A stretch of 64,000 bases of DNA from Hirudinaria manillensis (taxonomy: Eukaryota > Annelida > Clitellata > Hirudinida > Hirudinidae). Position numbers and translations under genes: made by a program. The stretch lies in NCBI GenBank assembly GCA_034509925.1, contig CM067532.1, forward strand, positions 4,234,142 through 4,298,141. The letters are read 5' to 3'. Below are positions 49,951-56,116 of the stretch, piece after piece. The notes under the pieces are model-generated. The model saw nothing but the letters and a program-made list of their open reading frames with translations, ran no database searches and had not been told where the DNA came from. The number at the start of each line of letters is the position of its first letter. Positions within the stretch are counted from its first letter, which is position 1.

Positions 49951-52563
49951 ATGTCGGACCTGCGCCAAAGGCAGATTTCCTTAACTGACCATTCCTCAAC
50001 AGTAAGTTTACTAATAATAATTTTTCCAAAAATATATCCTTGGCTCAACCGCGAAACTTAATGTTTAAAATTTATAATTATAACTTATGAAGTGAACTTG
50101 TGAAAACTCAGCCTACTGGTCAAGATGATTCGATAACACCTTTTACTAATATATACGGTTTTAAAAGCATTAATTTGCATAATTATCATTAAACAAAGTA
50201 TTTCCAACTGATTTTGGGTATTATTAGATTCCTCTTCTAATTCAAAAGATAGACATATCCGTATTTTTTGATCTATTCAATAGCAAACTGACAACCGGGA
50301 TGAAAGATCTGATGAAGATGTGGAGATCATGGACAGCGAGATAGGTGTCACTAATAGGGAGAAAAGTGCAAGTGACAACATTTTTGATTCAACTCTTAAG
50401 GGTGTCCCCCCAAGGTTTGCTGCCTAAATGACTGATCTTCAATTACAAAAAAATGAAAATAGGACATTTACACTTGTTCATGCCTATATGTTGCTGCCAA
50501 CAGATGGAAAAATTGGATGATTCGGGGGGTTACAACATTATTGATGATAGCAGCATTCTGTCTAATTATTTGGCTTGGTCCACTGTGTTTGGTGCTTTTG
50601 GTTGGTTTGAGTTTGAAATGCAAGATGTGATGGAATTTGGGAATGCTGTTACTCTGTTGTTATGATTTTTTTTTTGTTTTCAAGTTCTCTAATTTTGTGT
50701 CTTAGGTGGAAAAATTGGATCATTAGGACAATTCTTACTGGATTCATGTTGCTTAGTTTTTCTGTCATTATATCATTTGGTCCTCTCGCCTTAGTTTTTA
50801 TGGTGAGAGATTGTTCCCATTTTGTTTGCTTGCTTGTGGTTATTTTAATAGTCCTAAATCATTATGGCAATGATGGCTGTCATAGTTAATGCATGTTAGC
50901 TTAGCTTGAAATGCAATGGATTTTGGAAATATTTGCATTCCTTGCATATCTCTGTGATGGTCTACTTTCCAGATTCTTCTCATTCAAGTCAAATGTTTCC
51001 ATGAGATCATTACCATTGGTTATATTGTCTACAAATCCCATGAACTTCCATGGTTCAGAACCTTAAGTTGGTATTTTCTTATGACTACAAATTATTTTTT
51101 CTATGGTGAAAGTATGATGCAGTACTTTGGGGTGCTCATCTCAAGAACAGTGAGTAGCTACATTTAATAATACATGAATTAAAATGGTATTAATTTATTA
51201 TTTAATTTAAAGGAATTTTTGAGGCCATTTGTGACGTACCACAGGTTCATTTCATTCTCTTTGTATGTTGCTGGATTTGTTGCTTTTGTGTTCAGCTTGG
51301 TCAAGAAACATTATTTAAAACAGTTCACCCTTGTAGGTTTGCTTGTCTTTATCTTAAAGAAGCACATTTAAAAAAAAATAATTTTTCATTATTAGTTTGG
51401 ATGGACACATGTGACTCTAGTCATCATTGTGACACAGTCTCATCTTATTGTGCAAAATATTTTTGAGGGTCTCATCTGGTGAGAAAACATGTGTAAAATT
51501 CTGGTATCAAAGGTTATATTAACCTTAAATACAGGTTCCTGGTTCCAGTTTCCATGATCATTTGCAATGATATAATGGCTTATTTGTTTGGTTTCTTTTT
51601 TGGAAAAACCCCTTTGATCAAACTTTCACCAAAGAAGACTTGGGAGGGTTTCATTGGTGGAGCTTTTTCAACTGTTGTTTTTGGAATAATTGTCAGTAAA
51701 GAATAGTCTTGACTTCAATAAGAGCAATTATAAACAATTGATTTTTATTTCAGATTTCGTATTTCCTTGTCCAGTTTGATTACTTTGTCTGTCCCATTGA
51801 ATACAATGAAATGACTGAAGCTCTCACTATGGAATGTAATAGATCTTTTGTCTTCCAACTTCAGCATTATAATATTCCTCACCCTATCCAATACATTGGA
51901 TCTATTGTAAGTTTTATTACACCTTTCATTTCTTTATTCATTAAACAGCATTCTTTCATTCTTGAGTGAAAGCAACGTCTTTTATCAGCTCCACAGAGAC
52001 TGGAGGACAGTTAGTGTCTATCCCTTCATATTGCACTCCATTTCCATGTCTGTTTTTGCTTCCATAATTGGGCCATTTGGAGGGTTCTTCGCCAGCGGCT
52101 TTAAAAGGGCTTTCAAAATTAAGGTATTGTTAATGAAGATCATTACTAGTCATTGTCAAATTTGATCACAAATTGGAGGGAATTATACTCACATTCCTAT
52201 GGGATGAATGAGGCATTTGCAAACAATAACAATAAAATACTCATTTCATAAAAAGGAAGTGCATTATTATTATTCTCAGGATTTTGGTGACACCATACCA
52301 GGTCATGGAGGTTTTATGGACAGAGTTGATTGCCAGCTGCTCATGGCTACTTTTGTACATGTTTATCTGTCCAGCTTTATAAAGTTGGTATTGTTTAAAT
52401 AAATTTATTAACTTATTAGATATACTTGTGTCATATTTTTTTCAGAACTGTGAGTCCAATGAAGTTGGTTCAGCAAATACTTGCTCTGAGACCTGACGAA
52501 CAACTTCAAGTATTCAATTCCCTTGAGGAATCTCTTAAGAGGAGGGGCACATTGTCAGCTTGA
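49951..52563 (+). CDS. CDS2: CDP-diacylglycerol synthase
   Basis: The enzyme makes CDP-diacylglycerol from phosphatidic acid and CTP at the endoplasmic reticulum, feeding phosphatidylinositol synthesis. Exons: 49951-50001, 50284-50414, then 50504-50600 or 50706-50802, 50973-51149, 51213-51332, 51396-51478, 51535-51691, 51754-51906, 51989-52123, 52280-52383, 52446-52563; 441 residues with either third exon (human CDS2 445). An acidic cytosolic N-terminus is followed by WKNW and the first helix. The family signature is present: [12 protein letters not shown], then [21 protein letters not shown] and [27 protein letters not shown] and [14 protein letters not shown] match the luminal and second-helix region. 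It is the single animal CDS1/2 type; the symbol is given for the family. Confidence 0.96.
50504..50600 (+). other. Alternative exon 3a of CDP-DAG synthase
   Basis: 97 nt, acceptor CAACAG, donor TTTTG/GTTGGT. Encodes [18 protein letters not shown] then [13 protein letters not shown]. Enters in phase 2 and leaves in phase 0, exactly like 3b, and is closer to the vertebrate sequence (MIRG, LLMIAAF). Confidence 0.9.
50706..50802 (+). other. Alternative exon 3b of CDP-DAG synthase
   Basis: 97 nt, acceptor CTTAG, donor TTATG/GTGAGA. Encodes [18 protein letters not shown] then [13 protein letters not shown]. Same length and phases as 3a; including both would insert a second helix and is therefore unlikely. 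Confidence 0.9.
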
Positions 52564-53748
52564 AATAGTTACATTGACCATGCATCTTTAGATCTCATGT
52601 CTGCACCTTCCAATTAAATGGAATTGTTGTCTACATACAAATCTTCTTGAGTATATTTTGTTCAGTGTACAATCAGAATGGATTCATTTCCGATATTAAT
52701 GCTTGAAATCTCTGTTTGGGAACAATACCTTTTAAAGGATTTGGACAGATGCGTGTTCAATCAGACGACATCAAATTTATAATCAATATGAGATCTCTGT
52801 GATAGTCCATTTGCTGGTGTACTTCATATATTTAATGATGTAGTTGACCGATCGGAAATAACAAAGTTTCAATTTTTAGTTGATTTATATTTTATTGCAT
52901 GCAAAGGTTTTGAAATGTACTAAGGTAGACGAGTGCACTCAACGAATCGACACTCGCTTGCACCTCCGATAGCTAAAAGCGGACCAGTTATCTCGATTTC
53001 ATTAACCCCGTGCCAAAGTTGCATCGAGTTCTCTAATTTTGGACGTCAGAAACAAAAATTGGCTTGGTGGAGGTAGTCTTTGGAGCGTGGCACCATTGCC
53101 ACGCATTTCTGAATCATGAAAATTGTTATGGCTATCAATGCCTGGCTGCAAATGGCCAGAATGCATTAGGCAACATTGAGTCACCCACATCTCTGAGCAT
53201 CAGTCATCTTTTACTTCCTGCTTTATTCAATTGCATCTTATCAGGCAAAAAATAATTTTAGGGCTATTTGACAGCTTATAATGACATCCTTAAATACCCT
53301 CGAGCTCAAATTGCATTGCAAGATAAAAGTCCTCTGATAAAACTACAATGTGGCATAAACTAGAGGAACCACAAGGCTACCACAAATTTTTTTAAAAATC
53401 TACATCCATTTGAACGCTTTATATTCTGGAATGGTTAGCAACAGAGGTCACTGCTCTATAGTCCAGCAGTGGTTACAAATGAAAGTAAAAAGGCATAAAA
53501 CAGAAAAACCAGCATGTAAATGGTGGAATTTATGATTTTGATTAATCTTAGATTTAAATAAATCTTACAGAAACAAAAAGCAGGAATTCTAAAGTCATAT
53601 CGTGAAGCAATATTTTGTCAAAAGGCCCATGATTCAAGTCAGCACCTCTTGGGTTTTCTACAAAAATCAATGGATCAGTGAAAGTTAAATAAAGAAGATG
53701 CATAAAGTCACCAAGCTTACCAGGCCAACTTGATTGCAAACAGATCCC
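52564..53748. other. Convergent spacer CDS/profilin
   Basis: Contains the 3' UTRs of both genes. A moderately GC-richer stretch at 52920-53260 has short open frames on both strands without recognisable content, possibly an old repeat. Confidence 0.4.
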
Positions 53749-54310
53749 TCACATATTTTGTGATTCAAGATATTCAGCAATGGCTGCCACTGCCTTGTTT
53801 ACATTTCCATGCTGCTTTCCTTCAGAACAGTGAGCAATGACTATGGCTAGAAAGGATGTCAATAATGCATGATTATGTAGAACATTGCAGGTTTAATAAT
53901 ATTGAGTTTGACATACCAGACTTGGAGCTCTGAAGGGTAAGGCTTCCACTTCCCTTTTTTTTAGCTAGAACTAACTTGCCATCCTCCCCTCTGAGAAATT
54001 GATATTTCTGTCCCTCAACAACAACCCCATTTGACTGGAAGCTTGAGAAGCCATTGGAACTGAAACAGTTTGCTATTACACCGGCTTCTGCTTGGGAGAC
54101 TTTTAAAGCCTGTAAAAATACATAATTAAAAAGTAAGTTTCAGAGACATTTCAACAGGGCTGAAATCCACAATATTACATTTTTGTGGCCATCCGATGTC
54201 CATTTAGAACCATTCAAACCAATTATGCATGCTTTGTCACAGTGTGAGCTCCCAGTTTCATCTTGGCCTTTTGAAATAATACTGTCAATATAAGCATCCC
54301 ATCCAGACAT
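53749..54310 (-). CDS. Profilin
   Basis: Profilin binds G-actin, proline-rich ligands and phosphoinositides and controls actin polymerisation. Three exons in transcript order: 54310-54179, 54109-53917, 53846-53749; 140 residues, the usual length for the family. Landmarks: MSGWDAYIDSIISKG (N-terminal helix with the conserved WxxY), CDKACIIGLNGSKWTS, VEGQKYQFLRGEDGKLVLAK, AIVIAHCSEGKQHGN and the final helix AVAAIAEYLESQNM. The sequence looks like invertebrate rather than vertebrate profilin. Introns are 69-70 nt. Confidence 0.96.
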
Positions 54311-56116
54311 GGTGACAAGGAACTGAAAGTTTTAAACAAAAATACGGTTTGTTAATGCAATTCATAGTTGCTCAGATTTGGTTCATCATTAAAACCACAA
54401 AATATGAAATCACTGAATAAATTATTTAAACAAAGCAGTTCTATCAACACCTCCCGAAATTTACATCCTGTTTGTGAATTCACGAAGAATCTGAACAAAA
54501 CTTCAGATAGGCGAAGTTGTATGCGTTTAAGAGAAACGAAAAATAATAAATAAAACTTAAAAGTCAAAACGAAGCACTAACCAGTACAGAAAACGAAAAC
54601 TTAAGCAGCAGGAACAGATTCGACCAACCACACCGTTCTCAGAACCGGAAGCGGCACTGAGGCGTGTCTAACCAGTCCCACGAAATGAAGCTAGGAAGTT
54701 AAGAAAATTCTGAAATAAATATTTAAAAACACTTTAAAGTATTTATATTTATCATGTAAATTAAAGATTTTTAAGTATATTATTTCCATTTCTGGGTATA
54801 AGACATCATTAAAATAGCTACCGTCTGCTTGCTACAATTCTGGGTCGGGTACAATAAAAATTTTAATGCTGAAGATCGGTTGTTTGTTACGTTTAAAAAC
54901 ATATAAATCTACAAGTCAGTCCCCACGGTCATTAACAATTGAGCCTATTTCACTCAGAGAGTCAATTGCAGAAATGTAATATTAGGGCTTGCAAAAAATA
55001 TTTTTAGGAAATAGTGTTTTTATTTTTCAAAATGCTTATCAAATACGGCCGTGAGTGACTTGCCAAATAATAATGGGTTTTATTAACATTTCCACTTATA
55101 ATTTCATAAGGAGTCCAAATGTAATTTTAGTGATACATACTACACATTGTCCAGTAGGGGTTTTCAACCTGCACGGACCCCAAATCTTGCCATAATTCTT
55201 CGAGGATGTACTCGTTTTAAACTCGTCAGTAAACAGAATAAAGCGCCTATCTAACACAATTAATAATTTTCTAGACGACATAAAATGTCGATTAGTAATT
55301 TTAGTTTTGATGAAATGAGTGACTTTAACACTGAAAAATATTAGTAGTATGTTCCGAGATGGCCTTCTCAAACGAGAAGTTTTCCGAAGCTTTTTTCCCA
55401 GAAACTATGAAGTAAAAGCAGTGGTAGCTAAATTTCAAACTTATTAAGTAGTATAATCTCTGGATACTTGCAAGTCTTCCGATATTTAACAATTGAACAA
55501 GCTAGTGCGCATTGGAGCTAACAGTAAACTTTTCCGCAATTGTGTAAAGGTTATAAGATTCGCAATGACAATAAAATGCAATGAACGAAATTGACAGTCA
55601 TGACAAGCCATGACTTTGCCTCTTTGCTTCAAATTTAACGTTGCTGCTGTTTCTACTGGTGAAGATATTCCTTCAGCAATTTACTTTTGGATGTTGATTT
55701 TGGTTTGTTGTTAAATTATACTTCCATTGGGCAGTGTTTGAAGACAGATAACTTAAATGAGTTGGTCAGCAACAAAATCTACTGCGGTGAACATAGAGAG
55801 TTACACAGACAGTGCCGGGCGGCGTCCAATATTTCAAAACAGGCTTCGGCGGGATCTGGATGTTTTACGAGTTCTAAGCATCCAAATCAGTTCAATTGTG
55901 ACAAAAAATTACATAATCTGTAAAACTGAGTAATGCTGAACATATTTAGCAAGTTATCACCGCTAACATAACGGCGCCCCATGCGGTTTAAGAATTTTCT
56001 CCTACCTGTAAACAGGTGGTTATGACTCAAAGGCTTAAAGATTTTGCAGAACTCAGATGGCGAAATAAATATCCATGAATTTATTAGGCGCTTTTCCTAC
56101 ATTTGTAGTTCTAGAT
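54311..56116. other. Profilin upstream, no gene
   Basis: Contains the profilin 5' flank. A short frame near 55687-55920 is not protein-like enough to call. No supportable exon. Confidence 0.4.

Follow-up and report, generated by a model that had tools for sequence, protein, structure and literature searches.

Two exons for helix 1 in the CDP-diacylglycerol synthase gene of the leech Hirudinaria manillensis, probably mutually exclusive

CDP-diacylglycerol (CDP-DAG) synthase (CDS) is an essential membrane-lipid enzyme that acts at the step where phosphatidic acid is directed towards phosphatidylinositol and cardiolipin. In the blood-feeding leech Hirudinaria manillensis, the gene for this enzyme lies at 49951–52563 on the forward strand of the 64,000-nt stretch of DNA analysed here (the window), and it carries two adjacent exons that encode the same segment of the protein. 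The locus raises the question of whether these exons are alternatives to each other and, if so, what the choice between them might provide.

Gene model and reading frame

The gene was modelled as 12 exons occupying 11 positions, the third of which has two alternatives, 3a and 3b (Table 1). All 11 introns between neighbouring model exons, including those that flank 3a and 3b, have GT-AG boundaries. The Pfam model PF01148 matches residues 67–401 of the leech protein, with 256.1 bits (E = 6.6e-76) for the 3a isoform and 249.9 bits (E = 5.2e-74) for the 3b isoform, both far in excess of the 24-bit cut-off. The sequence KDx5PGHGGx2DRxD, described as the CDS signature motif (PMC7018664), is found from residue 368. 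Residues 1–61, ahead of helix 1, are hydrophilic on inspection of the translation by eye. A profilin gene is situated tail to tail with the CDS gene on the reverse strand at approximately 53740–54330, as seen from PF00235 matches to two translated fragments.

Table 1. Positions of the exons and intron elements of the leech CDS gene, and of the leech coq-2 exon pair. Positions are those of the window except for coq-2.
Feature	Position	Strand	Length	Remarks
Exon 1, coding part	49951..50001	+		ATG, 17 codons; GTAAGT donor; in-frame translation; start codon inferred
Exon 2	50284..50414	+	131 nt	hydrophilic N-terminus; last two bases (AG) begin an arginine codon
Exon 3a	50504..50600	+	97 nt	residues 62–93; AG acceptor, GT donor (gttggt); completes 441 aa
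Intron element, copy A	50613..50643	+		TTGAAATGCAA..TGGAATTTGGGAA; 12 bases into the intron after 3a
Exon 3b	50706..50802	+	97 nt	residues 62–93; AG acceptor, GT donor (gtgaga); completes 441 aa
Intron element, copy B	50906..50929	+		TTGAAATGCAATGGATTTTGGAAA; intron after 3b
Exon 4	50973..51149	+	177 nt	phase 0 start after 3a or 3b alike
Exon 5	51213..51332	+		gene model
Exon 6	51396..51478	+		gene model
Exon 7	51535..51691	+		gene model
Exon 8	51754..51906	+		gene model
Exon 9	51989..52123	+		gene model
Exon 10	52280..52383	+		carries most of the CDS signature, which starts at the last codon of exon 9 (residue 368)
Exon 11, coding part	52446..52563	+		gene model; includes stop codon
coq-2 exon pair (locus L132, contig 6:5360500-5368000)	3825-3955, 4369-4499	reverse	131 nt each	e-type and a-type exons; positions within the locus

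Both the coordinates of the two exons and their equal length, proposed in a sequence-only reading of the same DNA, were borne out, as were the phases: exon 2 supplies the first two bases of a codon that 3a or 3b completes, and both 3a and 3b finish on a codon boundary. Translation of the spliced models confirmed that either exon contributes a common 32-residue segment and yields a 441-residue product. That reading had also expected inclusion of both exons to bring in a further helix and disturb the topology of the enzyme, and here it was wrong. Because 97 nt do not make up a whole number of codons, joining 3a to 3b shifts the frame, and translation continues for only six residues into 3b (VEKLDH) before a stop, with residue 99 as the last. 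If both exons are skipped, a stop is reached in exon 4, after residue 91. Since both exons together and neither exon lead to early stops, single inclusion alone would yield the enzyme, and the reading frame itself, as translated here, is predicted to enforce the exclusivity of 3a and 3b at the protein level.

The early termination of both wrong products, after residue 99 or 91, would also be in keeping with a pair that serves mainly as an expression valve, in which deliberate double inclusion or skipping gives rise to decayed transcripts and a lower dose, the two helices being equivalent. In human, however, clusters of mutually exclusive exons often have frame-breaking lengths: 377 of them (60%) are reported to contain exons of length not divisible by three (PMC5740500). 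Being so frequent there, the frame-breaking length of 97 nt can be seen as ordinary design that needs no special role. The helices of 3a and 3b also differ at 13 of 22 positions, which argues against their equivalence, and we consider control of dose unlikely to be the main function of the pair.

Searches of the genome (148,429,096 bases in 23 contigs) with PF01148 and with the exon 3a–4 protein returned three matches each, all of them within the CDS gene, which lies on contig 7. Both searches found just this locus, in agreement with the earlier claim of a helix 1 exon duplicated in tandem within one CDP-DAG synthase gene; because only the best candidates are scored in such a search, a distant CDS paralogue is not strictly excluded. 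No relatives of the leech protein were detected in the collections of viral contigs and genome contigs, in which there were 8 and 32 pattern matches, respectively. One CDS gene is reported in insects and in C. elegans, compared with CDS1 and CDS2 in vertebrates, and two transcripts are reported for Drosophila CdsA (PMC7018664).

Further observations were made on the same genome. Contig 23 (15,581 bases) is mitochondrial and starts with cox1 (PF00115), after which come cox2 and cox3 (frames read by eye), tRNA-Gln and then nad6 (by eye). The order cox1-cox2-cox3-tRNA-Gln-nad6 is typical of annelids. A second COX1 match, with a score equal to that of the mitochondrial contig, was found at contig 9:3026446-3027786 (L004) and reflects either a recent transfer of mitochondrial DNA to the nucleus or an error of assembly. 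Matches to the antistasin domain number 63 in the genome, with many clustered on contig 2.

Similarity of the two exons and their place in the fold

Exons 3a and 3b are identical at 58 of 97 nt and at 16 of 32 residues. With each of two scoring schemes, none of 1000 dinucleotide shuffles attained the score of their local alignment. By the NG86 method, dN is 0.40 and dS is 1.86, the latter with few sites behind it, and one further estimator was saturated. Neutral drift to 39 differences in 97 nt was simulated from either exon under six settings of 5000 runs each. At least 16 residues were identical in 0.1–0.6% of the runs (p = 0.001–0.006), and at least 16 identical residues and no stop were obtained jointly at a frequency of 0.0006–0.002.

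Residues 65–86 were picked by eye as the helix ahead of the test for periodicity. The 9 positions in this stretch that are identical between the two exons recur with a period of 100 degrees (permutation p = 0.0003). With the best angle among 90–110 degrees p was 0.0015, a value slightly biased towards the observed data in that integer angles were used for these and even angles for the permutations. When the stretch is drawn as a helical wheel, all 8 positions at 200–300 degrees are identical and all 13 differing positions fall outside this sector, I67 being the lone identical position outside it. One face of the helix is the same in both copies, and most of the remainder is not. Because of this fixed face, and because the identity exceeds that expected from neutral drift, both exons are very probably functional, each having the look of a working version of one helix.

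It could also be that a single enzyme is made, from 3a or from 3b, and that the other exon is an old duplicate, no longer used but still exon-like. The donor of 3a, gttggt, is not of the usual GTAAGT/GTGAGT form, and the pyrimidine tract upstream of this exon looks poor by eye, both of which would fit with disuse; the same gttggt donor occurs at exon 10 too, however, which argues against an unused 3a. Moreover, an unused copy at the dS found here would rarely hold 16 of 32 residues without a stop, as the joint frequency given above indicates, and the tracking of helix periodicity by the identical residues also speaks against it. We regard an unused copy as quite improbable. The pair was read from one assembly, and an assembly error or a haplotype duplication might place both alleles of a single exon next to each other, but the 39 of 97 bases at which 3a and 3b differ are far beyond allelic difference. 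The same is true of the flanking introns, which, one common element aside, give no alignment above shuffles, and an origin of the pair from two alleles is hardly credible.

The position of the two working exons in the fold was examined by comparison with bacterial CdsA. The only solved structures related by sequence are two chains of one bacterial-type enzyme, 4q2g and 4q2e, which we take to be the Thermotoga enzyme (TmCdsA) of the review PMC7018664. The N-terminal domain of TmCdsA is described as a single helix, and both this domain and the C-terminal one are said to give the cavity of the bacterial enzyme its shape (PMC7018664). The N-terminus of the E. coli protein was apparently misplaced in a three-sequence MAFFT alignment, and profiles were used instead. 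The bacterial profile comprised E. coli CdsA and 24 of 29 CdsA loci, read on both strands (25 sequences); the other 5 loci, which had no open frame of >240 residues with the motif, were left out. It supersedes an earlier profile from 18 of 30 loci, taken from plus strands only, in which one sequence was a 17-residue fragment. A search of the genome contigs with E. coli CdsA gave 521 relatives, of which the best 80 were 84–99% identical, and L017 alone was used.

Alignment of the CdsA profile with the leech protein begins at residue 67 in the 3a isoform and at residue 64 in the 3b isoform. An arginine present in all 25 bacterial sequences falls on R68 of the 3a isoform but is displaced by one position, to T69, in 3b, and a glutamate that is likewise present in 25 of 25 falls on E104 in both. 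The spacing of this arginine and glutamate, which flank helices 1–2, is 37 in E. coli compared with 36 in the leech (R68, E104). At the level of sequence alignment, the assignment of the exon pair to helix 1 of the CdsA fold is firm. In an ungapped count, bacterial R5 (25 of 25), A9 (20 of 25) and L12 (21 of 25) correspond to residues 68, 72 and 75 of the unchanged face. Bacterial S/T8 (24 of 25) and P14 (17 of 25) instead correspond to two leech positions, 71 and 77, at which the isoforms have different residues, and at three leech positions that do not change between the isoforms (79, 82 and 83) the bacterial columns are variable. Because of these disagreements, the equation of the unchanged face with an ancient face is supported by the first three turns only.

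Introns and the choice of exon

The element that the introns have in common is found once after 3a and once after 3b (Table 1, copies A and B). A composite pattern, TTGAAATGCAA and then TGGA(A/T)TTTGG(G/A)AA, has just these two exact matches in the 148 Mb genome, and its reversed control has 0. The pattern was built from its own two copies, and the fair test is therefore the intron-to-intron alignment, which was equalled by 21 of 2000 shuffles under strict and 48 of 2000 under loose settings, and by 6 of 500 in a separate run. The two copies of the element differ at 2 of 24 bases, with a 7-base gap left out, compared with 9 of 14 synonymously variable codons in the exons (Fisher p = 0.0005, post hoc and with counts made by hand). 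A retained splicing element would be the simplest reading of this post hoc find, and it has modest support.

Complementary docking sequences in the introns, which the sequence-only reading had named as something to look for, did not emerge, as pairing energies were no better than those of shuffles. For six intron pairings of the docking/selector kind, the observed energy was reached in 40 to 100 of 100 shuffles, and for two chosen sub-segment pairings in 5 and 22 of 100. Folds of four intron stretches gave z between -0.73 and 0.08. The U12 donor consensus, (A/G)TATCCTT, is absent at all 11 introns, which argues against incompatibility of U2 and U12 splice sites as the basis of exclusion. Exclusion by steric hindrance would call for a branch point less than 50 nt from the upstream donor. 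The intron between 3a and 3b is 105 nt long, compared with 56–63 nt for five other introns of the gene, and for this reason steric hindrance through crowding is not obvious. Its sole yUnAy match, which may not be the true branch point, lies 91 nt from the donor and 13 nt from the acceptor.

The stretch 50664–50705 holds a long T tract and, behind it, an in-frame AG whose last base is 50684. This AG, 21 nt ahead of 3b, is a possible second acceptor that would add seven residues. TGCATG, an RBFOX-like motif, occurs at 50890, but is one of 24 in the window and hence uninformative. A candidate for a decayed third copy of the exon in the intron between 3b and 4 (50858–50907) is not supported, its weak similarity to 3b being reached by 34 and 18 of 1000 shuffles. 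In a comparison of 3b with the intron between exons 2 and 3a, 25 and 6 of 1000 shuffles did as well. Because eight pairings were tested under two scorings, these exon–intron similarities are attributed to chance.

Proposed role and comparison with known systems

Our reading of the locus, made from the genome sequence, is that 3a and 3b are probably mutually exclusive exons of the sole CDP-DAG synthase gene detected in the leech, and that their purpose is most likely to let a single gene supply the enzyme in two versions. These versions may, as the sequence-only reading suggested, be specific to tissues or membranes. A splicing factor would pick 3a or 3b, perhaps by way of the intron element duplicated after each, and wrong joins with both exons or neither would be cleared by nonsense-mediated decay. 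With the bacterial enzyme as a guide, either exon would encode transmembrane helix 1 and help to shape the substrate cavity, the unchanged face of the helix packing on the core or lining the cavity and the variable face meeting lipid or a partner. The swap could then tune the entry of phosphatidic acid, acyl preference or fit to the membrane, a job that vertebrates may assign to two genes, CDS1 and CDS2. It is put forward tentatively, as a possibility short of an expectation, that the leech tunes its supply of phosphoinositide and cardiolipin precursors in this manner, keeping the core side of helix 1 and changing its lipid side, so that exon choice would be an exon-level substitute for CDS1/CDS2 and a counterpart of the coq-2 switch in this animal. 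A naturally occurring exchange of helix 1, with one face fixed and most else changed, would be a ready-made experiment on the role of this helix.

No description of such a pair in a CDS gene was found in the open-licence literature, as judged by titles and the starts of abstracts among the matches listed. The main text of PMC9741552 contains neither CDS1 nor CDS2, and the main text of PMC5740500 does not contain the word "cytidylyltransferase." Exclusive exons of this kind are already known, and the CDS gene appears to be new for them.

The coq-2 gene, which encodes the COQ2 polyprenyltransferase, is reported to carry mutually exclusive exons in molluscs, annelids and helminths, nematodes among them; in C. 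elegans both exons measure 134 nt. The choice between exons 6a and 6e is reported to decide whether the enzyme serves the synthesis of ubiquinone or of rhodoquinone (PMC7434440). The leech genome, in which coq-2 was taken as a positive control, was found to contain an e-type and an a-type coq-2 exon, in the order e then a (Table 1). Both versions, taken together with the next exon, score above the cut-off of PF01040, and TIGR01474 is the best COQ2/UbiA model, below its whole-protein cut-off as expected for a fragment. Their length of 131 nt is not a multiple of three, and both exons joined would shift the frame into a stop. Because this leech pair has the same frame logic, the CDS exons are arranged in a way already reported from annelids, there too in an enzyme of a lipid pathway. 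The coq-2 pair also suggests that the leech may be able to make rhodoquinone. Of the A-to-S and F-to-L changes reported for coq-2 e exons, a change of the A-to-S kind is present in the leech (YAFQ/YSYQ, by our own assignment), and the F-to-L change is not obvious in a simple ungapped comparison.

The coq-2 gene resembles the leech CDS gene in having two internal exons of equal length, not a multiple of three, in an enzyme of a lipid pathway, but the coq-2 swap alters the enzyme core and the substrate, whereas the CDS swap sits in helix 1. Equal-length exclusive exons are also found in mrp-1, for which an independent origin in each lineage is reported (PMC7434440), although mrp-1 is a transporter; in insect MRP1, regulation by intronic RNA pairing is reported (PMC6071210), whereas such pairing was not detected in the introns of leech CDS. 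Human SLC25A3 and CACNA1C likewise have exclusive exons within membrane proteins, but they belong to other protein families and their splicing is reported to be backed by reads (PMC5740500), whereas the leech pair comes from sequence. As with the leech pair, CDS1 and CDS2 give vertebrates two forms of one enzyme per animal, but these are reported to have arisen by gene duplication (PMC7018664), whereas the leech pair would have arisen by exon duplication. Together with coq-2 and mrp-1, leech CDS would extend a pattern in worms, annelids and molluscs in which exon choice, in place of gene duplication, provides a membrane enzyme or transporter in two forms.
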